NCBI GenBank assembly: GCA_945871905.1
Contig: CAMBXL010000002.1
Span: 1 to 64,000 of the forward strand
Direction of reading: 5' to 3'
DNA: 64,000 nt
Origin: Chitinophaga pinensis
Lineage (GTDB): Bacteria > Bacteroidota > Bacteroidia > NS11-12g > UBA955
The notes beneath the pieces were generated by a model, which was given only the letters and a program-made list of their open reading frames with translations, was not told the DNA's origin and searched no databases. Below are positions 55,060 to 64,000 of this stretch, in pieces; the stretch's first letter is position 1, and each line of letters starts with the position of its first letter. A program made the translations under genes and the position numbers.

Positions 55060-56463
55060 ATGTTTGCCCATCAATATAATCCTGAAGACACCATTGTTGC
55101 AATTACCACACCTGCAGGTAAGGGTGCAGTAGGAATGATTAGAATATCTGGGAATAAAGCTTTTTCTTTAACGGAGTTATTGACAAAAAAAGAAATTCAT
55201 GCTTGGCCATCACATACTATCCATTTAAGTCGATTTTATGAAAAGGAAGAAATTATAGATGAAGGTTTGGTCTTAAAATTTAATGGGCCCAACAGTTATA
55301 CAGGCGAAGACACCATTGAGCTTAATTGCCATGGTTCACCACTGATACTTCAAAAAACTTTACAAACATTAATTTCATTAGGTGCTAGAATAGCAGCTCC
55401 AGGTGAATTTACATTCAGAGCTTTTATAAACGGAAAGCTCGACTTAGCACAAGCAGAAGCAGTAGCAGATGTTATTAACGCTGAAAGTGAAAAGGGATTG
55501 ACCAATGCCCTTAAACATTTAAAAGGTGGTTTTTCAAAATCAATACAAATCCTTAGAACCGATTTAATAAAATTCGCTTCTTTAATTGAACTCGAACTCG
55601 ACTTTGGGGAAGAAGATGTAGAGTTTGCTGAAAGAAATGCCCTACTCAATAAAATTGAAGAATTAAGAATTGAAATAACCCAATTGATAGAATCATTTAA
55701 AGTGGGGAATGCCATATCAAAAGGAATTCCAACCGCAATAGTTGGTAAACCCAATGCAGGCAAATCATCACTTCTAAACACGATACTGAATGACGACAGG
55801 GCTATTGTTTCGAATATTGCAGGCACAACAAGAGATACTATTGAAGAACTATTTAATATCAATGGCCTCCTTTACAGACTTATAGATACAGCAGGCATTA
55901 GGGAAACAGAGGATGTCATTGAAAAAATAGGCGTTAAGAAAGCTTTAGAAAAAATAAGTGAGGCAGACATTGTCCTTTATTTAATAGATGCTCAAACTTT
56001 CAACATTTCTGAACTTCGCGATTTGGTAAATGCACAATACCATCAAAACAGTAAACTGATAGCTTGTTTCAATAAAATAGATTTATTAACAGAGATTGAA
56101 TTATTGGAATTACAGACAAGTATTAAGAACGAAAAGCTACAAGAACATAATATTGAAACTCTATTTCTTTCCACAACCAAAAAACAAGGCATTGCGGAAT
56201 TGAAGGAATTGATGTCAAAAGACATTTTAAATCAATTAAGGGCTAATGAGCAATTGCTTACCAATAATAGACACTACGAGGCCCTAAGCAAGGCAAATGA
56301 GCAACTTCTCTTGTGTAAGTATGCCATAGAACAAAGAATAAGCAATGACCTGTTAGCCGAAGACCTCAAACTTGCACTGTATCACCTAGGTGAAGTGTCA
56401 GGGACTATCAGCAATGATGATCTTTTAGAATCCATTTTTAGGGATTTTTGTATCGGAAAGTAA
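55060..56463 (+). CDS. mnmE: tRNA uridine-5-carboxymethylaminomethyl modification GTPase
   Basis: 467 residues. N-terminal folate-binding domain (DTIVAITTPAGKGAVGMIRISG, TGEDTIELNCHGSPLILQKTL, ARIAAPGEFTFRAFINGKLDLAQAEAVADVI). G domain inserted in the helical domain: G1 GKPNAGKSS, G3 DTAGIRETEDVIEKIGV, G4 NKID. C-terminal FCIGK with the conserved cysteine. Works with MnmG to modify wobble U34 of tRNA. The last 15 bases of the gene (56449-56463) are also the left attachment site of an integrative element; the stop codon is preserved, so the protein is intact. Confidence 0.96.
   Translation: MFAHQYNPEDTIVAITTPAGKGAVGMIRISGNKAFSLTELLTKKEIHAWPSHTIHLSRFYEKEEIIDEGLVLKFNGPNSYTGEDTIELNCHGSPLILQKTLQTLISLGARIAAPGEFTFRAFINGKLDLAQAEAVADVINAESEKGLTNALKHLKGGFSKSIQILRTDLIKFASLIELELDFGEEDVEFAERNALLNKIEELRIEITQLIESFKVGNAISKGIPTAIVGKPNAGKSSLLNTILNDDRAIVSNIAGTTRDTIEELFNINGLLYRLIDTAGIRETEDVIEKIGVKKALEKISEADIVLYLIDAQTFNISELRDLVNAQYHQNSKLIACFNKIDLLTEIELLELQTSIKNEKLQEHNIETLFLSTTKKQGIAELKELMSKDILNQLRANEQLLTNNRHYEALSKANEQLLLCKYAIEQRISNDLLAEDLKLALYHLGEVSGTISNDDLLESIFRDFCIGK
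56449..56463 (+). mobile_element. attL core at the 3' end of mnmE
   Basis: TGTATCGGAAAGTAA is repeated with one mismatch as TGTATTGGAAAGTAA at 61839-61853. It encodes the final CIGK-stop of MnmE. The position next to the integrase gene and the conserved target make it a likely attachment core. Confidence 0.8.
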
Positions 56464-56539
56464 AGTTATTTTCTTTTGATAGTGTAATCCCTTCTTATAA
56501 TTGACTTGTAGCCATTTTTAGATGGTTTAATTTTCTTTT

Positions 56540-56575
56540 ATTTTGTTGTTATTTGTTGTTTTATTGTTGTTAATT
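56540..56575. repeat. TTGTTGTT repeat cluster before the integrase gene
   Basis: Three TTGTTGTT copies at roughly 10-11 base intervals within TTTTGTTGTTA / TTTGTTGTTT / ATTGTTGTTA lie between the att core and int. The helical-turn spacing suggests integrase arm sites or repressor iterons. Confidence 0.5.
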
Positions 56576-56577
56576 TA

Positions 56578-56585
56578 TATCTTTG
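56578..56585 (+). promoter_or_regulatory. -7 promoter element of the element's int operon
   Basis: TATCTTTG is a perfect TAnnTTTG match, 29 bases before the int ATG at 56615. TTTG at 56552-56555 is a possible -33 element with a 22-base spacer. Confidence 0.55.
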
Positions 56586-56599
56586 TATAACATTTACAC

Positions 56600-56611
56600 A
56601 ATTAGCAACAA
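56600..56611 (+). repeat. Left copy of a 12-bp inverted repeat at the element ends
   Basis: AATTAGCAACAA; its exact reverse complement TTGTTGCTAATT is at 61778-61789 near the right end. Likely integrase arm-type or excision-factor site. Confidence 0.5.
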
Positions 56612-56614
56612 AAA

Positions 56615-57772
56615 ATGAAAGTACATTTAAGACAAAGAAAACAAACTGATAAAAAAAGCAGTAAGTCAAATGACACTAATAAAGCAAATGTTAGTTTGTA
56701 TTTAGAAATTTATAAAGGAACTGCAATCACTCCTGAAGGTAAGACTAAAATATTAAGAGATTATGAATACTTAAATTTATACTTAATAGACAAACCAACA
56801 TCAATTGCTGATAAACAAATCAATAAAGATACCTTAGCTTTAGCAGAAAAGATTAAAAACAAAAGGCAATCAGAAATTGACAATGGCACTTATGGATTTG
56901 ATAGTAAACAAAAAAAGCAAACTAACTTTATTGACTACATTCAATCTTTATCCAACAAAAGATATGAAAGCAAAGGTAATTTTGGCAATTGGGAAAGCTT
57001 AGTTAAACACCTTAAAAAATATGCTGGTTTAAATTTAACATTCAATGATGTTAATGAAAAATTTTGTGAAGACTTTAGAGATTATCTAAATAGTGCCAAA
57101 ACTAAAAGTAATCAAAAATTATCATCAGGTTCTGTTTCATCTTACTATACTAAATTTAGAGTAGCTTTAAAACAAGCAGTAAAGGAAAAAATCATTTTAT
57201 CAAATCCAAGTGATGATATAAGCACTCCAAAAGTAATTGAAAAACAAAGAGAGTATTTAACTTTAGATGAAATAAAAGCATTGGTAAAAACAGAATGTAG
57301 GTATGAAGTTTTAAAAAGAGCTTTTATATTTTCATGTTTAACTGGCTTAAGATGGTCTGACATTAATAATCTAACATGGAATGATGTTGAAATAACATCT
57401 GATGGCTGTAGAATTACTTTCCATCAACAAAAAACTAAAGGATTGCAATATCTTGACATATCAGGTCAAGCAAAAAACTATATAGGTACACAAGGCAATC
57501 CTTTTGATAGAGTTTTTATAGGGCTAAAATATAGTAGCTATGCAAATGTAGAACTAACAAAGTGGATGCTGAAAGCTGGGATTACAAAAGATATTACTTT
57601 TCATTGTGCCAGACACACTTTTGCTGTTTTGCAGTTAAGCTTAGGAACTGAAATTTACACACTTTCAAAGCTATTAGGACATTCAGAAATAAAAACCACT
57701 CAAGTATATGCTAATATTATAGATGCAAAGAAAAAAGAGGCTGTAAACAAAATACCAGATATATCACTATGA
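56615..57772 (+). CDS. int: Tyrosine integrase of the mnmE element
   Basis: 385 residues, three domains: Arm-DNA-binding (about 1-95, KVHLRQRKQTDKKSSKSNDTNKANVSLYLEIYKG), SAM-like core-binding (about 105-200) and catalytic (about 215-370). Catalytic residues: R246 in TGLRWSDI, Lys in HQQKTKG (about 273-275), H330 and R333 in FHCARHTF, H356 in LLGHSE, nucleophile Y365 in TTQVYANI. It should recombine the 15-bp core at mnmE. Distinct from the recombinase at 249. Ends in an ATGA overlap with the next gene. Confidence 0.95.
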   Translation: MKVHLRQRKQTDKKSSKSNDTNKANVSLYLEIYKGTAITPEGKTKILRDYEYLNLYLIDKPTSIADKQINKDTLALAEKIKNKRQSEIDNGTYGFDSKQKKQTNFIDYIQSLSNKRYESKGNFGNWESLVKHLKKYAGLNLTFNDVNEKFCEDFRDYLNSAKTKSNQKLSSGSVSSYYTKFRVALKQAVKEKIILSNPSDDISTPKVIEKQREYLTLDEIKALVKTECRYEVLKRAFIFSCLTGLRWSDINNLTWNDVEITSDGCRITFHQQKTKGLQYLDISGQAKNYIGTQGNPFDRVFIGLKYSSYANVELTKWMLKAGITKDITFHCARHTFAVLQLSLGTEIYTLSKLLGHSEIKTTQVYANIIDAKKKEAVNKIPDISL

Positions 57773-58554
57773 AAAAAGATAAAAACCTAAAAATCAATTT
57801 AGATACTAATTTAGAAAACATATCTAAATACATCAAAGATGATAAAGACATTAAATTACATTCTGAAATTGAATTAACTGCCAAGGCTTATTTTATACTC
57901 AATAATGACTATAAACCTTGGAAAATGGAAATCATTGCTGAACTTAAAAAAATAAGTGAACCAAAAAATCAAATAGATTATTTAAGAAAACAAAGTATTG
58001 AATATTTAGAATATGTTTCAGACAATCCATATTTATTAGCAGCATCAGGTTATACACAAAAAACCCATCAACATAAGGCTGGTTTAGATAGATGGATTGA
58101 GTTAGAAATTAGTAAAATTGAACTTAGTATGGTAAATGATAATCCTATTAAATCAAAAAATAAAATATCATACATCTGGGTAAACAATCCAGACAAAGAA
58201 TTACCAGAACTTTTTGAACTTATGGTTAATAAACACAAACTAATTGCACCTGAGACAAACTATGAGCAATTTAAAGCAGTTTTTACAGGGCAGCTAATAG
58301 ATGATGAATTTAAGCCTATCAAATGGCATCAAGACAATGCAAGTGAATTGTTATATTTTATAAATAGATTAAACTTTTACAGCAACATTACTAAACCAAA
58401 TCAAAATGCTGATTATAAAAAAATGACATCATGTTTTGTTAAGCCAGATGGAAAGCCATTTGAAGCAGCTTGGAAGTCATTAAACTCTAATATTGAGATT
58501 AATTTATCAGATGCAAAACAAAAGGTAATAGACAAAATAATTAATGAATTTTAA
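57769..58554 (+). CDS. Element hypothetical protein, 261 aa, RteC-like C-terminus?
   Basis: Soluble, Lys/Asn-rich. The C-terminal 90 residues (KLIAPETNYEQFKAVFTGQLIDDEFKPIKWHQDNASELLYFINRLNFYSN ... FVKPDGKPFEAAWKSLNSNIEI) resemble the pattern of RteC-type regulators, which have a KW-x-GS-x2-L-x-E-L-I-Y-x-L segment and control excision or mobilisation in Bacteroides elements. Overlaps int by 4 bases (ATGA), so the two are translationally coupled. The resemblance is weak and needs a profile search. Confidence 0.55.
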   Translation: MKKDKNLKINLDTNLENISKYIKDDKDIKLHSEIELTAKAYFILNNDYKPWKMEIIAELKKISEPKNQIDYLRKQSIEYLEYVSDNPYLLAASGYTQKTHQHKAGLDRWIELEISKIELSMVNDNPIKSKNKISYIWVNNPDKELPELFELMVNKHKLIAPETNYEQFKAVFTGQLIDDEFKPIKWHQDNASELLYFINRLNFYSNITKPNQNADYKKMTSCFVKPDGKPFEAAWKSLNSNIEINLSDAKQKVIDKIINEF

Positions 58555-58633
58555 ATACTCATTCTTTACCTTTACCTTTACTAATCAAGCAAGTAAACAC
58601 TAATATTTTCTTTGTTTTCTGTCCTTTGCAGAC

Positions 58634-58927
58634 ATGAATTTAGAAAATATAAATGATAGACTAAGGAACATTGAAACCTTACTATTAAATCAAAAATCAG
58701 TATTTAATTTTGATGAAATTGCAGCTTATACTGGGCTGTCTAAAAGTCATCTTTACAAACTTACATCATCTGGTGGAATACCTTGCTACAAACCACAAGG
58801 GAAACACATTTATTTCAATAAGGTTGAAATAGATGCATGGCTTATGCAAAACAGAAAAGCCACTAATCAGGAGATTGAAATCCAAGCATCAACTTATTTA
58901 ACTATAGGAGGGCAAAAAAATGATTAA
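58634..58927 (+). CDS. HTH protein of the excisionase/AlpA (helix_turn_helix_17) type
   Basis: 97 residues. A short N-terminal helix (INDRLRNIETLLL) precedes the MerR-like winged HTH FDEIAAYTGLSKSHLYKLTSSGGIPCYKPQGKHIYFNKVEIDAWLMQN, the standard arrangement of the helix_turn_helix_17/DUF3853-type excisionases in Bacteroidota. Probably the recombination directionality factor or a regulator of the element. It overlaps the next gene by 8 bases. Confidence 0.88.
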   Translation: MNLENINDRLRNIETLLLNQKSVFNFDEIAAYTGLSKSHLYKLTSSGGIPCYKPQGKHIYFNKVEIDAWLMQNRKATNQEIEIQASTYLTIGGQKND

Positions 58928-59456
58928 CAACTATTTTAAATTCATTGCTTTGCCTGATGATGTTAAGGCAGCTAATAAAATCAGAAGTAAAAAAAGACTT
59001 GATTGTATTGTATTTAGTAATAAAGAAAATTATCATGGCTTGACAAATTTTGTCAATGATAAAGGTCAATTATATTTATACAAAACTGAATGTAACAACT
59101 TTATAAATGCTGACAAAAAAAGAATGGCTGAATGGAGTTTAACTGGTAATGAGTTAAACCTAAGTAGTATTTATATTGATGATACTGACATCATAGAATA
59201 TGGATATGGCTATCCAAACCCAAACAGAACTTTAGGGAATGGAAAGCCAAACCCACTATTTGAATTTAGAAATGATGGTTATTTGTTTATTATGAATAAT
59301 GACTATTCAGAAATTGAAATCTTGATTGTAAAGGATGGCAGAAACTTAATAAGCAGTTATTACCAGAAATTAATTGATGGTGGATTTGATAGCTTAATAA
59401 GTGAATTTAGAAAGCAATCAATCCCATTTTACAATTACTTAAATAATAGACTATAG
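58920..59456 (+). CDS. Element hypothetical protein, 178 aa
   Basis: I do not recognise it. Soluble, no signal peptide, many Asn/Tyr/Lys. A stretch with DIIEYGYGYPNPNRTLGNGKPNPLFEFRNDGYLFI is Gly/Pro/Asn-rich. It overlaps the HTH gene by 8 bases and lies 35 bases before the rep-like gene, so it is part of the element's main operon. No catalytic motif seen. Confidence 0.6.
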   Translation: MINNYFKFIALPDDVKAANKIRSKKRLDCIVFSNKENYHGLTNFVNDKGQLYLYKTECNNFINADKKRMAEWSLTGNELNLSSIYIDDTDIIEYGYGYPNPNRTLGNGKPNPLFEFRNDGYLFIMNNDYSEIEILIVKDGRNLISSYYQKLIDGGFDSLISEFRKQSIPFYNYLNNRL

Positions 59457-59491
59457 TAAGCTGTTTTGAATGACATTTTTAATCAATTGAT

Positions 59492-60421
59492 ATGTATGAC
59501 ACTATTAATTTTTGGCTATCATCTGACAAAGTTAATTCATTTAATATTTCAGATACTTCAAGACATCTTGTGAATATTTCAGAAAGCTTTAGAGATGATG
59601 GTCAAAACTTAATAAGTGGAAACATTAAAAACTTAAAGGTATCAATTAGGCTTGAAGGCATATCTATAAAAGGCAGCCTTGCAAAATACTTTCTAAATGA
59701 TAACTTTAAAACCTTAACAAGATTAGATACTCAAAGAGCTATTGAACAACTATCAGATGAATTGTATTTACCCATACATGAATTTAATATAACAAGATTA
59801 GACTTTGCCCAAAATATGCTGATGGAACACCCACCAGAGGCATATTATAACTTTTTAGGGGATTGCATCCACTACACAAGACTAAAGCAGCCACAAAGCA
59901 TTTATTATTCAAATGGATTAAAACAGAAATTGTTTTATAATAAGATTGCAGAAGGCAGAAAAAAAAGGGAAACAATCCCTGAAATATGGAATGACAGAAA
60001 TGTTTTAAGATATGAAATGAGATACTTAAACAGACTGCCAAAACAATTTAATACTTCAATGGTCACAGCCCAAACAATAACTGATGAAAAGTTTTACATG
60101 ACAATGTTTGACAATTGGCACAATGAGTATAACAGCATCAATAAAATAAATGACTTTAAAATTAACACCAAAGAAATGAAAAGCCCAAAAGACTTTAAAA
60201 AACAACTTGAAATTTTTGCTATAAAACAATTAGGTCAAGACAATCTTTTTGAAATGATTGAAAGCTTAAGACTTCAAAACACTTTTGAAAGTCCTGAATA
60301 CTATTCAAGATTAAAAAAAGAAATCAGGACACTTTGCAGCACTCCAGAAATCACTATTGAAACAGAACTGATAAAAGAGCTAAACAAAAAAATAGATAAC
60401 ACTAAAAGGAACTACAGATAA
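59492..60421 (+). CDS. rep: Phage/plasmid-type replication initiation protein
   Basis: 309 residues. The pattern MYDTINFWL ... GISIKGSLAKYFLNDNFKTLTRLDTQRAIEQLSDELYLPIHEFNITRLDFAQNM ... LKQKLFYNKIAEGRKKRE ... NVLRYEMRYLNRLPKQFN matches what I know of Bacteroidota phage/plasmid replication proteins (Phage_X / Phage_CRI, Rep_trans-like, rolling-circle initiators of the filamentous-phage and small-plasmid type). It would let the excised circle replicate. I cannot point to the nicking tyrosine with certainty. Confidence 0.82.
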   Translation: MYDTINFWLSSDKVNSFNISDTSRHLVNISESFRDDGQNLISGNIKNLKVSIRLEGISIKGSLAKYFLNDNFKTLTRLDTQRAIEQLSDELYLPIHEFNITRLDFAQNMLMEHPPEAYYNFLGDCIHYTRLKQPQSIYYSNGLKQKLFYNKIAEGRKKRETIPEIWNDRNVLRYEMRYLNRLPKQFNTSMVTAQTITDEKFYMTMFDNWHNEYNSINKINDFKINTKEMKSPKDFKKQLEIFAIKQLGQDNLFEMIESLRLQNTFESPEYYSRLKKEIRTLCSTPEITIETELIKELNKKIDNTKRNYR

Positions 60422-60451
60422 AATCACAATTGACAAAAAACATCAATCAAA

Positions 60452-60889
60452 ATGGCTACACCCAAAACACAAATAGAACTAACAGAACTTGAAAGCCTTG
60501 CATGGCAGTACATAATTGAATGTGAAAACAACACAAAACTGCATCCAACAGCATCAGGAAAGCTTGTATCAATTAATTACAGGCATTTACCCACTATTAG
60601 TTACTTCCTAAATATATATATCCCAATGAAGGGAAAGCCCACAATAAGCAGAACAACATATTACAACTGGCTAAACCAATCTAATGACAAAGAAAAGCTT
60701 GACACTATAGCCACTATAGGTAAGCTATTTGAAGCTTTAGCAATTGACATAGTAGCCAATGAAGGGAGGGGCATATTTTATTCAAAAAATAAATTAAATT
60801 TTACTGATAAGATTGAGCAAAAAAATAATGAAAATTTTAAGCCTATTGAATTAGTAGTTAAATATTCAGATGATATAAAACCATTATAA
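60452..60889 (+). CDS. Element protein, 145 aa, HTH / small-terminase-like?
   Basis: The middle reads KGKPTISRTTYYNWLNQSNDKEKLDTIATIGKLFEALAIDIVANEGRGIFYSKNKLNFTDKIEQK. An HTH-like segment followed by IFYSKNKLNFTDK resembles the end of phage small terminase subunits, where a similar FxLKNKFGYxDK motif is common. This is a suggestion only. It lies 30 bases after rep and 3 bases before the next small gene. Confidence 0.5.
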   Translation: MATPKTQIELTELESLAWQYIIECENNTKLHPTASGKLVSINYRHLPTISYFLNIYIPMKGKPTISRTTYYNWLNQSNDKEKLDTIATIGKLFEALAIDIVANEGRGIFYSKNKLNFTDKIEQKNNENFKPIELVVKYSDDIKPL

Positions 60890-60892
60890 GGA

Positions 60893-61126
60893 ATGAAACC
60901 AAAAGAACTTAAATTTATAATAAACAGCATTGATGATATAATTAAATTAGGTAGAAGTAACAAGCTTACACCTAAGCAATTTAATGAGGTTTTAAGTCAT
61001 TGCAGCCCCTTTGTAGGCATCTTTACAAAAGACTATGAAAACACTATTGAAATGGCTGAAAAGCTACATGAATTTAACAAGACATGGCAGCATACAATAG
61101 AAAAGCCTATCTTTATTGATTTTTAA
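60893..61126 (+). CDS. Element small protein, 77 aa
   Basis: Unrecognised. MKPKELKFIINSIDDIIKLGRSNKLTPKQFNEVLSH then a short helical tail. Starts 3 bases after the previous gene and ends 14 bases into the convergent lipoprotein gene. No motif assigned. Confidence 0.55.
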   Translation: MKPKELKFIINSIDDIIKLGRSNKLTPKQFNEVLSHCSPFVGIFTKDYENTIEMAEKLHEFNKTWQHTIEKPIFIDF

Positions 61127-61673
61127 ATTTATTTTTAAAGCAATTAGATACATTATAGAAAAATTCAGACTCCTGAATACTTATAAAATTTTGTGTAGCA
61201 ATACCCAATTTCACACCTTTGATTTTTTTTATTGAAAAATCACTTAAATGTTTGTCATTTATTTCAAAAAAAGCTTTTGCAGAATGATAGACATTTCCAT
61301 AAAAATCTGAAGTAACATCTCCAGTAACTTTGCTATCAATTTTTAATTGAGTATCATCATCAAATAATAATACAACTCCCCTTTCATCAAGTATAGGAGA
61401 ACTTGAAATCCCGTTTATAGACATATATTTTCTAATTTCATTACCACTTTTAACAAAACTAAATGATAAAATACTTTGTTTTGTAAACTTTACTCCAGAC
61501 TCTTTTATTGAAATAAAAGAAGGTGACCTAAAGTTAGTATCTTTACTAAATGCATCTACACTTGTATTTATTAATAGTGAACAATCAATAGTAGTTGAAT
61601 TAACAAATAAAGTTGATTTGTAAGGGCTACATCCCAATAGTAACAGCAAAGTTAAAAATCCAAAATATTTCAT
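61113..61673 (-). CDS. Element lipoprotein, 186 aa (cargo?)
   Basis: Signal peptide and lipobox MKYFGFLTLLLLLGCSPYKSTL (Cys15), so it is a lipoprotein. The rest is beta-rich with many charged residues (FTKQSILSFSFVKSGNEIRKYMSINGISSSP, VVLLFDDDTQLKIDSKVTGDVTSDFYG). It is the only gene of the element on the minus strand and sits at the far end, the usual place for cargo. Converges with the 77-residue gene (14-base overlap). A TAATTTTG promoter element (61678-61685) ends 4 bases from the ATG. Confidence 0.6.
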   Translation of the reverse strand: MKYFGFLTLLLLLGCSPYKSTLFVNSTTIDCSLLINTSVDAFSKDTNFRSPSFISIKESGVKFTKQSILSFSFVKSGNEIRKYMSINGISSSPILDERGVVLLFDDDTQLKIDSKVTGDVTSDFYGNVYHSAKAFFEINDKHLSDFSIKKIKGVKLGIATQNFISIQESEFFYNVSNCFKNKFKNQ

Positions 61674-61677
61674 TTGC

Positions 61678-61685
61678 CAAAATTA
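61678..61685 (-). promoter_or_regulatory. -7 promoter element of the element lipoprotein gene
   Basis: TAATTTTG on the minus strand, 4 bases before the ATG; another candidate for a leaderless transcript. Confidence 0.45.
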
Positions 61686-61777
61686 TCATTTTAACTTTCA
61701 ATAAAAAATATTATATTTGCTAAACACTATTTTAAAGATAGTTTATTTATAAAATAGCATAATAGTAAAATAACTAA

Positions 61778-61789
61778 TTGTTGCTAATT
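61778..61789 (-). repeat. Right copy of the 12-bp inverted repeat
   Basis: TTGTTGCTAATT, the exact reverse complement of 56600-56611. Confidence 0.5.
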
Positions 61790-61830
61790 TTCACTAAAAA
61801 CATCCTTAACCCTTGTAAATACACACTTTT

Positions 61831-61853
61831 TTACTTTCTGTATTGGAAAGTAA
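61831..61853 (+). mobile_element. attR with palindromic core
   Basis: TTACTTTC (61831-61838) and GAAAGTAA (61846-61853) are perfect inverted arms around the 7-base TGTATTG, the geometry of a tyrosine-recombinase core site. 61839-61853 repeats the mnmE 3' end (TGTATCGGAAAGTAA) with one mismatch, inside the 7-base spacer. Confidence 0.78.
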
Positions 61854-64000
61854 TTAAATCCCTAGAGGCGAATCGCCTGGTTGCCCATATTCTTCGGTGT
61901 CTTTTTCCTCGAAATATTGACTGCAATCAAACTCAAAACTAATTTCTTGTTGTGGCCGGTCTATAGGGTCAAGCCTAATTCCTAATTCCTTATCCGCCCG
62001 AGCTTTATTGATAAAATGAGCAAAAATTGGCAATGCAGAGTGAGCACCTTGTCCATAATTTGTACTTCTGAATCGCACTTTACGACTGTCGCAACCCACC
62101 CAAGTAGCACAAACCAAATCCTTAGTAACACCCATAAACCATCCATCACTGTTGCTTTGGGTAGTTCCTGTTTTACCCCCTACCCATCCTTCCACTTTGT
62201 AACGGTTGTGCAAGCGTTGACCTGTTCCTCTTTTACAAACACCTTCCAACAACTGACACATGACATAAGCTTTTTCTTCAGTTAGAACTTGCCTAATTTT
62301 TTGGGGTGAAAACTCAGCCAATATATTCCCGTTTTTGTCTTCTATCCTGGTAATATAAGTAGGTTCAACCCAATATCCTTTGTTGGCAAATGTAGAAAAT
62401 GCACCCGCCATATCGAAAGGAGAAATGTCTGTTACGCCTAAACAAATAGATGGATAAGGCTCTAATTTGGCACTGTCTATTCCCATTTTCCTAACAAACT
62501 CTATCACATTTTGAGGTGCATTTTCCCCCAAAGTATACATCACTTGTGCTACTATACAGTTGGTAGAGGAAGCCAATCCTCTGAACATATTCATTGTGCC
62601 TCCATAAGAACCATCACTATTACTGATTGTCCAATTAGGATATGGAGGAGGATTATTAGGAAACTGCATACAAGGCGATAATTTATTGTCAATTGCCAAA
62701 GCGTAAACAAATGGTTTGAATGTAGAACCAACCTGACGACCTGAACCTTTATTGACATGGTCATATTTGAAATAATGGTGATTAATCCCTCCTACCCAGG
62801 CTTTTACTTGTCCTGTTGTCGGTTGGATTGCAATAAAACCAGTATGTAAAAAACGTTTCATATACTTTACCGAATCCAAAGGACTCATCATGGTATCAAT
62901 GTCCCCTTTCCAACTAAAAACCGTCATTTTGGTCTTCTTTCTGCAAATCTTCATTATTTTAGAAGTATCGCCATCAAACTGATCTTTAAGCAATCTGTAT
63001 CTTTCGGTTTTTCGCAACTCTTGCATTGGATATTCTGGTAACACTTTCCAGTTTTCATCTCTCCAAGGCTCTCTATTACCCCACGATTTGTCAAATTGAC
63101 CTTGTAATTCTGTTAAATGCATTTTTACAGATTCTTCAGCATAAGTCTGTAATTTGGAATTAATGGTTGTGTATATTTTTAATCCATCTTTGTATAGATT
63201 ATAATTTTCACCATTCGGTTTTTTATTTTCCTTACACCATTTGGTTAAATCACGTTTGAGCCATTCTCTAAAATATACGGCCAAACCAGAATTGTGGTCT
63301 TCATATTGGTAGTTGAGTTCAATAGGCATTGATTTGAGTGAATCGAAGCCATTCTTGGTAATTTTTTCATTACGAAGCATCTGACCTAACACTGTATTTC
63401 TTCTTGCCAATGAGTTGTTAGGATTTCTTTTGGGATTGTATATGGTTATAGCTTTTAATACGCCTACCAATACTGCCGATTCTTGAATACTAAGATCTGA
63501 GGGTTGTTTATTAAAAAACTCCTTTGAGGCCGATTTGATACCATACGAATTACCCGAAAACTGCACTGTATTCAAATACATGGTTGCTATTTCTTCTTTG
63601 GTATATCTTCGTTCTAGTTTAATGGCAATAACCCATTCCTTTAATTTTTGTATAAGTCTGATTGGCAAACTTGGTCTAATGCCATCTTCGTAGTGAAACA
63701 AATTCTTAGCAAGCTGTTGTGTAATGGTACTGGCACCCCCTTTTTTCCCTAATCCTACAACAGCACCCAACAAACGTTTAACATCGATTCCTGAGTGAGT
63801 AAAGAAACGCTCATCTTCAGTGGAAATAAGGGCATCAAACATGCTTGGGGCAATATCACGGTAATCAACATTGGAGCGCTTCTGAATAAAATACTGGCCC
63901 AAAACCACTCCATCTTCACTGTATAATTCACTAGCAAGTGCACTTTTGGGGTTTTCTAACTCTTCAATATCTGGCATGTAACCCAATACTCCTAGATTGA
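61854..64000 (-). CDS. Penicillin-binding protein 1A, 5' end beyond the window
   Basis: Bifunctional class A PBP, partial (frame open past the right edge: NLGVLGYMPDIEELENP). Transglycosylase: EDERFFTHSGID, ASTITQQLAKNLFHYEDG, KLERRYTKEEIATMYLNTVQF. Transpeptidase: GSTFKPFVYALAID (SxxK), SSTNCIV (SxN), GGKTGTTQSNSDGW (KTG). It builds and cross-links peptidoglycan. The missing part should be the cytoplasmic tail and signal anchor. Its stop codon begins at 61854-61856, right after attR, so the mobile element lies between convergent mnmE and PBP genes. Confidence 0.95.
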   Translation of the reverse strand, partial: NLGVLGYMPDIEELENPKSALASELYSEDGVVLGQYFIQKRSNVDYRDIAPSMFDALISTEDERFFTHSGIDVKRLLGAVVGLGKKGGASTITQQLAKNLFHYEDGIRPSLPIRLIQKLKEWVIAIKLERRYTKEEIATMYLNTVQFSGNSYGIKSASKEFFNKQPSDLSIQESAVLVGVLKAITIYNPKRNPNNSLARRNTVLGQMLRNEKITKNGFDSLKSMPIELNYQYEDHNSGLAVYFREWLKRDLTKWCKENKKPNGENYNLYKDGLKIYTTINSKLQTYAEESVKMHLTELQGQFDKSWGNREPWRDENWKVLPEYPMQELRKTERYRLLKDQFDGDTSKIMKICRKKTKMTVFSWKGDIDTMMSPLDSVKYMKRFLHTGFIAIQPTTGQVKAWVGGINHHYFKYDHVNKGSGRQVGSTFKPFVYALAIDNKLSPCMQFPNNPPPYPNWTISNSDGSYGGTMNMFRGLASSTNCIVAQVMYTLGENAPQNVIEFVRKMGIDSAKLEPYPSICLGVTDISPFDMAGAFSTFANKGYWVEPTYITRIEDKNGNILAEFSPQKIRQVLTEEKAYVMCQLLEGVCKRGTGQRLHNRYKVEGWVGGKTGTTQSNSDGWFMGVTKDLVCATWVGCDSRKVRFRSTNYGQGAHSALPIFAHFINKARADKELGIRLDPIDRPQQEISFEFDCSQYFEEKDTEEYGQPGDSPLGI

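Follow-up and report, generated by a model that had tools for sequence, protein, structure and literature searches.

The 64,000-nt stretch analysed here (contig CAMBXL010000002.1 of the Chitinophaga pinensis assembly GCA_945871905.1, phylum Bacteroidota; hereafter the window) contains an integrated element of 5,390 bp at positions 56464-61853, between mnmE and a gene for a penicillin-binding protein 1A (PBP1A). With good confidence, this element is interpreted as a minimal phage satellite endowed with a rolling-circle initiator (Rep) and with its own terminase small subunit (TerS). Its sequence establishes the integration at the end of mnmE, the possession of an own integrase, a Rep assigned to the Phage_CRI family (the gpII family of filamentous phages) and a TerS of predicted tailed-phage type, with no recognisable terminase large subunit (TerL) or structural gene. 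A TerS without a TerL therefore suggests that the element probably travels by hijacking virus particles. Features generally used to recognise phage satellites were found: a discrete integrated element with its own integrase and attachment (att) sites, a packaging gene (TerS, by its relatives and their synteny) and no structural-gene match. The first-pass annotation of this DNA had considered a phage satellite or a minimal rolling-circle integrative element. The former gains support from the placement of open reading frame (ORF) 145 in a TerS lineage whose genes closely precede TerL in contigs of tailed phages, the latter from the Phage_CRI family membership of Rep. The features of the element are as follows.

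56615-57772, plus strand: tyrosine integrase (int), 385 aa (PF00589, 4e-18; PF13102, 1e-21), in a clade of integrases from relatives located at mnmE.
57769-58554, plus strand: ORF261, overlapping int by 4 nt (ATGA), a probable excision accessory with a position like that of iolg in the phage-inducible chromosomal minimalist islands (PICMI).
58634-58927, plus strand: excisionase- or regulator-like helix-turn-helix (HTH) protein of the HTH_17 family, 97 aa (PF12728, 3.5e-14; NCBIfam TIGR01764 'excise', 8e-12; phrog_25262, 8e-28, a family without assigned function).
58920-59456, plus strand: ORF178, conserved Rep-linked protein (alignment of 15 sequences; AlphaFold2 model with a predicted local distance difference test score, pLDDT, of 90.1).
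59454-59491, plus strand: putative double-strand origin just before rep, consisting of the motif TAGTAAGNTGT and a hairpin, which is imperfect in the window.
59492-60421, plus strand: Rep, 309 aa, rolling-circle initiator of the Phage_CRI / G2P type (PF05144, 3.9e-20, residues 1-192; also by its relatives).
60452-60889, plus strand: ORF145, read as TerS (relative in locus L063; TerL synteny of IMG/VR relatives).
60893-61126, plus strand: ORF77, small TerS-linked protein (similar to the protein encoded after TerS in L063).
61113-61673, minus strand: convergent putative lipoprotein, 186 aa, considered as cargo (lipobox-like MKYFGFLTLLLLLGC, judged by eye).

The eight genes are thus arranged in the order int, ORF261, HTH_17, ORF178, Rep, ORF145, ORF77 and convergent lipoprotein. 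The integrase near the left att site (attL), the excisionase-like HTH gene, the initiator-like gene and the small terminase-like gene had all been noted in the first-pass annotation and were recovered as such, and profile searches placed neither the 145-aa nor the 309-aa protein in an unrelated family. Pfam gave nothing above cut-off for ORF261, ORF178, ORF145, ORF77 and the lipoprotein, and PHROG gave no match for Rep. The similarity of ORF77 to the protein following TerS in L063 amounts to 35% identity over 54 columns (E=1e-7 in a single comparison). Scans with Pfam, PHROG, NCBIfam and PADLOC assigned no family to the lipoprotein and matched no TerL, capsid, tail or other structural family among the eight proteins, in line with the earlier remark that capsid genes are absent. 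The same remark extended to conjugation genes; no canonical relaxase or coupling-protein family was matched among the eight proteins in general library scans, in which the origin of transfer was not searched, and the rolling-circle Rep could serve as a relaxase. No Zot/pI ATPase or filamentous coat gene was matched among them either, and no primase was found with Pfam, PHROG and NCBIfam.

ORF145 is read here as the TerS of a tailed phage because of its 61% identity to ORF138 of L063, which matches the TerS family phrog_606 (6.6e-4), and because of the TerL synteny of its relatives. Using an alignment of three ORF145 sequences (A5), relatives were obtained in 390 IMG/VR contigs, from which the best 80 were examined. 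A TerL-like gene was present downstream in 76 of these 80 (within about 410 nt in 74), a figure which does not count independent cases, since near-copies are frequent among the contigs and six of the 80 served to build the TerL profile. Late TerL genes were seen in L123 (3.3 kb) and L133 (1.4 kb), and no TerL in the stretch examined of L121, L122, L157 and L198, where the TerS of L121 and L157 lies at or near the end of that stretch. PHROG identified the next gene as TerL in six of seven tested cases, and these six neighbours went into the TerL profile; the seventh (in L123) is a glycosyltransferase. When 83 TerS were placed in a midpoint-rooted tree, the sequences of the window, L063, L079, L121, L122 and L123 formed a clade of six tips (support 0.989). 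No match of the TerL profile was obtained in the ORFs of the satellite loci. ORF145 alone had no match in the phage collection; its sole IMG/VR match (L075), 27 residues inside a protein that appeared ParB-like by eye, was dropped.

The position of ORF145 directly after Rep appears to be a slot for exchangeable genes. A plus-strand ORF of 80-210 aa starting at most 260 nt after Rep was found in 17 of the 33 Rep-positive loci mapped, and five of the 17 matched TerS families at E<1e-3. These are the slot ORFs of L064 (Sf6_terminase, 3.3e-18; phrog_1482, 5e-16), L019 (phrog_309, 3e-13), L021 and L024 (phrog_6299, 4.5e-16 and 6e-19, respectively) and L063 (phrog_606, as given above). The L019 protein is also distantly related to the TerS type of the window (E=6.6e-5). 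ORF145 itself is the sixth, by its identity to L063 and by synteny. Not counting the type of the window, PHROG distinguishes three TerS families in the slot, a pattern that would be hard to explain otherwise and which therefore argues for a packaging role.

The remaining slot ORFs are diverse. Those of L029 and L030 belong to DUF5681 / phrog_15125 (no assigned function), that of L018 is HTH-like, those of L065, L114 and L115 are short basic proteins, and those of L015, L017, L066, L069 and L074 form one unnamed family (cluster 4, from which only L015 and L017 were scanned). The cluster-4 and L029 proteins had no match in the phage collection. DUF5681/GGR proteins were considered as TerS and left unproven, their phage relatives not being located beside an annotated TerL. 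A family of 180-210 aa with a conserved (Y/W)xF(V/L)CPxTG-like stretch is encoded downstream of Rep in L015, L016, L017, L066, L067, L069 and L074; Pfam and PHROG gave nothing at E<0.1 for the L017 member, and PHROG nothing for the one of L015.

Several points count against the interpretation as a TerS-carrying satellite. ORF145 on its own reached a TerS family of PHROG only at E=0.03, and its AlphaFold2 model is poor (pLDDT 52). To the mutual dependence of the 80 contigs is added that the TerL profile spans one lineage and could miss others, and that the host genome, searched with the L143 TerL, yielded no relative (one query only). The other 11 of the 17 slot ORFs are not proven TerS, and relatives of the L115 protein occur in three Bacteroides phages, not beside an annotated TerL. 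Finally, 16 of the 33 Rep-positive loci have no slot ORF, among them L120 and L108 with less than 450 nt of locus after Rep.

A linear IMG/VR contig of 7,164 bp (L121, IMGVR_UViG_3300042868_012912) is informative on module exchange. Its genes follow the order int, a 314-aa ORF that shares 4 nt with int, HTH, a 376-aa DnaB/helicase-like protein, a 425-aa protein and TerS. The 425-aa protein is primase-like by eye and matches a PHROG family without assigned function (2.7e-5). The TerS is 62% identical to that of the window over 115 aa, no Rep-profile match was obtained in L121, and the record holds no piece of mnmE. This gene order points to a sister satellite in which the replication module was exchanged and int, HTH and TerS were kept.

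The boundaries of the element were defined by its flanking repeat, TGTAT(C/T)GGAAAGTAA, which is unique to the element ends in the whole window. The features concerned are listed below.

55060-56463, plus strand: mnmE, host gene whose 3' end is the integration target (PF12631, PF10396; empty site in a congener).
56449-56463, plus strand: attL core repeat, TGTATCGGAAAGTAA (exact repeat search of the window).
61839-61853, plus strand: core repeat of the right att site (attR), TGTATTGGAAAGTAA (exact repeat search of the window).
61854-63986, minus strand: PBP1A-like gene, right flank (PF00912, PF00905).

Both repeats had been reported in the first-pass annotation and their coordinates are exact. 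Within two mismatches of the mnmE 3' end, attL and attR are the only two sites on both strands of the 64 kb. The attL repeat corresponds to the last 15 bases of mnmE including the stop codon, so that mnmE stays intact. The attR site displays the structure TTACTTTC-TGTATTG-GAAAGTAA, that is, inverted arms of 8 bp around a spacer of 7 bp. Core sites of tyrosine recombinases usually have such a shape. The G+C content of the element is 0.279 versus 0.351 in the remaining window. No tRNA gene was detected in the window, and no Rfam match between 55 and 64 kb.

MnmE was looked for in 16 congeners, of which 13 (L081-L093) were read over the complete end of the gene. The site is empty in one, G001 (L081), whose MnmE is 63% identical to that of the window and where the PBP1A gene comes directly after mnmE: the gene end TGTATCGGAAAGTAG is immediately followed by CTAAATCCCTAACGG and PBP1A, in agreement with the right flank of the window, TTAAATCCCTAGAGG. 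The comparison with empty-site relatives, proposed in the first-pass annotation, together with the att repeats, thus confirms that the mnmE 3' end is the target. In five of the 13 congeners (L082, L085, L087, L088 and L093) another tyrosine integrase was found right after mnmE, no Rep being found beside any of them, and in seven neither query matched downstream of mnmE. From the empty site and the other integrases at mnmE it follows that the element is mobile in origin and that, in this genus, mnmE serves as a hot spot of integration.

Relatives were collected with a Rep profile (A1) of eight sequences, at E<=0.001. Matches were obtained in 4 of 70 genomes of the family, in 19 of 395 sampled genomes of the phylum and in 18 of 395 sampled genomes of the class, where each count includes the window's own genome and the phylum and class samples overlap. 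The 33 Rep-positive loci consist of 27 loci and six further ones (L108, L112, L114, L115, L117 and L120). Four duplicates (L113 of L063, L116 of L029, L118 of L017 and L119 of L016) are outside this number, and the weakest phylum and class matches were left unmapped. The recurring order is int, a variable protein, HTH_17, an ORF178-like protein (in nearer relatives only) and Rep, and this compact arrangement is present in several Bacteroidota families. Carriers include Gracilimonas mengyeensis DSM 21985 (L118/L017), a metagenome-assembled genome (MAG) of Balneola sp., the MAG Saprospiraceae bacterium UBA2365 and Pontibacter sp. E15-1 (L120). The Gracilimonas element shares the Rep type, ORF178 and the mnmE site, and has a cluster-4 gene in the TerS slot.

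Nine Rep-positive loci are located at mnmE: the window, L016, L017, L020, L029, L065, L112, L114 and L115. A copy of attR with 1-3 mismatches was found in six of the nine, the one of L017 being chosen among three 3-mismatch matches by its flanking arm. For L020, a 2-mismatch candidate lying 7.4 kb after rep without an arm was dropped; in L115, which ends soon after, none was found, and the variant mnmE end of L112 escaped the search pattern. Five mnmE elements could be measured (5,390, 6,646, 5,841, 7,105 and 6,473 bp), each with a lower G+C content than both flanks. In the integrase tree, the window, L029, L065, L016 and L017 form one group (0.982), to which the pair of L020 and L074 is sister (0.998 for all seven). 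The Rep-positive loci L063, L064, L018, L019 and L015 lie on a contig other than that of the mnmE of their genome, and L120 is not beside mnmE; the same module therefore uses other sites with other integrases.

With Rep alone, no match was obtained in the phage collection, nor in IMG/VR or genome contigs by single-sequence patterns, and the Rep profile matched no sequence of the PDB. Among plasmid records, one distant match was found in Parabacteroides distasonis (E 2e-13, 27% identity). In that species, a distant Rep-positive element (L014, NZ_OY725790.1 47553-64173) was observed to encode int, HTH and Rep followed by small hypothetical genes; the one post-Rep protein tested (138 aa) did not match a TerS family.

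The motif TAGTAAGNTGT is located 34-39 nt upstream of the rep start in 7 of the 33 loci (window, L016, L017, L029, L063, L115 and L120); the searched loci contain one more copy on that strand. It is followed, in the gap before rep, by a hairpin. Taken locus by locus the hairpin is mostly not significant, a stem of at least 6 being present in 9 of 27 loci. In an alignment of 13 rows (14 loci, L016 and L017 being identical), 87% of the hairpin cells paired versus 66% after shuffling; both sides had changed in five of six pairs, and covariation was 0.502 versus 0.109 for shuffled rows and at most 0.12 when slid. Two facts speak against giving these values full weight: the rows were picked and registered by hand, the rest of the 33 loci being omitted for unclear register (including L120 and L108 despite their hairpins), and the hairpin of the window is imperfect, with a best perfect stem of 3. 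Motif and hairpin look like the nicking origin of Rep; alternatively, the hairpin may regulate rep.

ORF261 is a probable excision accessory, by analogy of position with the int-overlapping gene of PICMI. The overlap was counted in 22 loci where a plus-strand ORF comes after a listed integrase: it was exactly 4 nt in eight and of any length in ten, and in L070, one of the eight, it is the HTH gene that overlaps int. The RteC identity suggested earlier was rejected, as no match was obtained in ORF261, in the proteins of the int-HTH interval of nine relatives or in that of L029. The ORF178 family, encoded between HTH and Rep in nearer relatives only, has a fold predicted with confidence (pLDDT 90). 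Its model had no PDB or BFVD match below E=0.001 (best VIA Z 4.3), and the sequence search of the PDB gave nothing below E=0.16.

Unrelated genes for secreted or lipoprotein-like proteins (by eye) were seen after Rep in L015, L017, L019, L029, L063 and L065. PADLOC detected no defence system in the window element, only an HTH-domain similarity (mad1, 3.6e-7). Two observations on defence genes were made elsewhere. In the Balneola element (L016/L119), ORF293 (L119:11515-12396, minus strand), located between Rep and the cluster-4 gene, is the candidate defence protein PDC-S42 (PADLOC, 1.8e-38). In genome G610 (L079:4161-10365), mnmE is followed by a Septu-like PtuA/PtuB pair (1.8e-92 and 5.5e-49), and further genes of the region encode a protein that is HTH-like by eye and a TerS belonging to the window type; no integrase- or Rep-profile match was found within the 19 kb examined. 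Our reading of this locus is another mnmE-site element, or a remnant of one, with defence genes.

Among other explanations, a non-canonical integrative mobilizable element (IME) deserves most attention and is nevertheless judged unlikely. In such an element, the Phage_CRI Rep would act as relaxase, a resident integrative and conjugative element would provide the mating pore, and TerS would be incidental cargo. A rolling-circle Rep could indeed serve as relaxase: in the available parts of a survey, streptococcal IMEs often encode putative relaxases resembling rolling-circle replication (RCR) initiators (MobT/Rep_trans, PHA00330-type), and the 3' end of trmE (mnmE) is also used by SGI1 and related IMEs (PMC5704250). 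Relatives of the HTH protein were, moreover, found on other contigs without this Rep. However, conjugation needs no TerS, and several TerS families occupy the slot after Rep; the sister L121 has retained TerS and has no Rep-profile match; the Bacteroidetes IMEs treated in those parts have canonical relaxases (PMC5704250); and relaxase and coupling-protein families are unmatched in the window element by Pfam, PHROG, NCBIfam and PADLOC. Still less probable is an immobile decayed prophage or integrated rolling-circle plasmid with a stray terS: tiny size, the absence of a structural-gene match and broken parts in some relatives (split integrase in L029/L116, split Rep in L024) would fit it, but the compact gene order recurs in several Bacteroidota families, both att sites are intact, the eight genes are open, the congener site is empty, and the origin-like hairpin is conserved although non-coding.

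For the phage satellite, the following cycle is proposed. Infection by, or induction of, a tailed helper phage would switch on the HTH_17 regulator. The integrase and the HTH protein, perhaps also ORF261, would then excise the element as a circle. Rep would nick the origin just upstream of rep and produce rolling-circle concatemers. The satellite TerS would bind element DNA and recruit the TerL of the helper, leading to headful packaging of the concatemers in helper capsids, and the delivered DNA would integrate at the mnmE 3' end of the recipient. A possible role of the lipoprotein cargo is to restrict infection by competitor phages.

The balance tips slightly in favour of a broader proposal, namely a widespread class of Bacteroidota rolling-circle satellites down to about 5 kb. 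These would form concatemers with a filamentous-type Rep and carry an exchangeable TerS, taken from several phage TerS families, which would direct the concatemers to any helper whose terminase it fits. Replication (Rep or helicase-primase) and TerS would be plug-in modules on an int-accessory-HTH core, one integrase clade of which is found at mnmE. The best-described phage satellites are those of Proteobacteria and Gram-positive cocci, and Bacteroidota are an abundant phylum of gut and water. A literature search over titles and abstract openings (partly incomplete listings, few subscription papers) found no Bacteroidota rolling-circle TerS satellite. If the proposal is true, the element would be a very small satellite encoding its own packaging specificity factor, with a replication strategy absent from the consulted passages on terS satellites, and the family would offer a natural series of TerS swaps for asking how satellites choose their helpers. 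The relative in the culture-collection strain G. mengyeensis DSM 21985 makes the family testable.

Among known systems, TLC-phi and RS1, satellites of filamentous Vibrio phages, are small and use a rolling-circle initiator of the gpII/Cri type. They integrate by XerCD and depend on filamentous helpers, whereas the window element has its own integrase and a tailed-phage type TerS. Likeness to IMEs, from the parts of the survey mentioned above, is given by the tyrosine integrase, the trmE/mnmE 3' end as in SGI1 and an RCR-type protein as in streptococcal IMEs (PMC5704250); the difference consists in TerS and in the unmatched canonical relaxase or coupling function. Phage-inducible chromosomal islands (PICIs), including the Staphylococcus aureus pathogenicity islands (SaPIs), are described in the available text of a review with int, a regulator or xis, a replication gene, in some SaPIs terS redirecting helper packaging, and accessory genes last; PICIs have primase and initiator, and Gram-negative ones use AlpA (PMC6092414). 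That main text contains no word starting with Bacteroid or Flavobact (PMC6092414). The window element likewise has int, a small regulator and a replication gene, then terS and accessory genes, but its Rep is of the rolling-circle Phage_CRI type. Against the strict signature of the PICIs, which the first-pass annotation had brought up as a known type, the element has terS and falls short on primase, for which there was no match, and on AlpA, as the HTH protein scores as HTH_17 and reaches 16.9 bits with Phage_AlpA, below the Pfam cut-off of 21. PICMI of Vibrionaceae measure about 6 kb and, in the accessible description, are packaged as concatemers (eight copies, about 49 kbp), consistent with rolling-circle replication, without capsid-remodelling genes (PMC10803314). 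For 21 of the 35 PICMI subfamilies, an overlap of 1, 4 or 13 nt is described between int and a gene that belongs to diverse families, and in PICMI115 this gene (iolg) is required for excision (PMC10803314); ORF261 resembles it in position only. The window element and PICMI share a low number of genes, int with an ATGA-overlapping gene, a small regulator and an own replication gene. PICMI are fis-adjacent primase users with no detected packaging-redirecting genes (PMC10803314), in contrast to the mnmE site, Phage_CRI initiator and encoded TerS found here, and from the PICMI core (int, AlpA, primase) the window element has int only. In its way of working, as proposed here, the element is like a PICI or PICMI.

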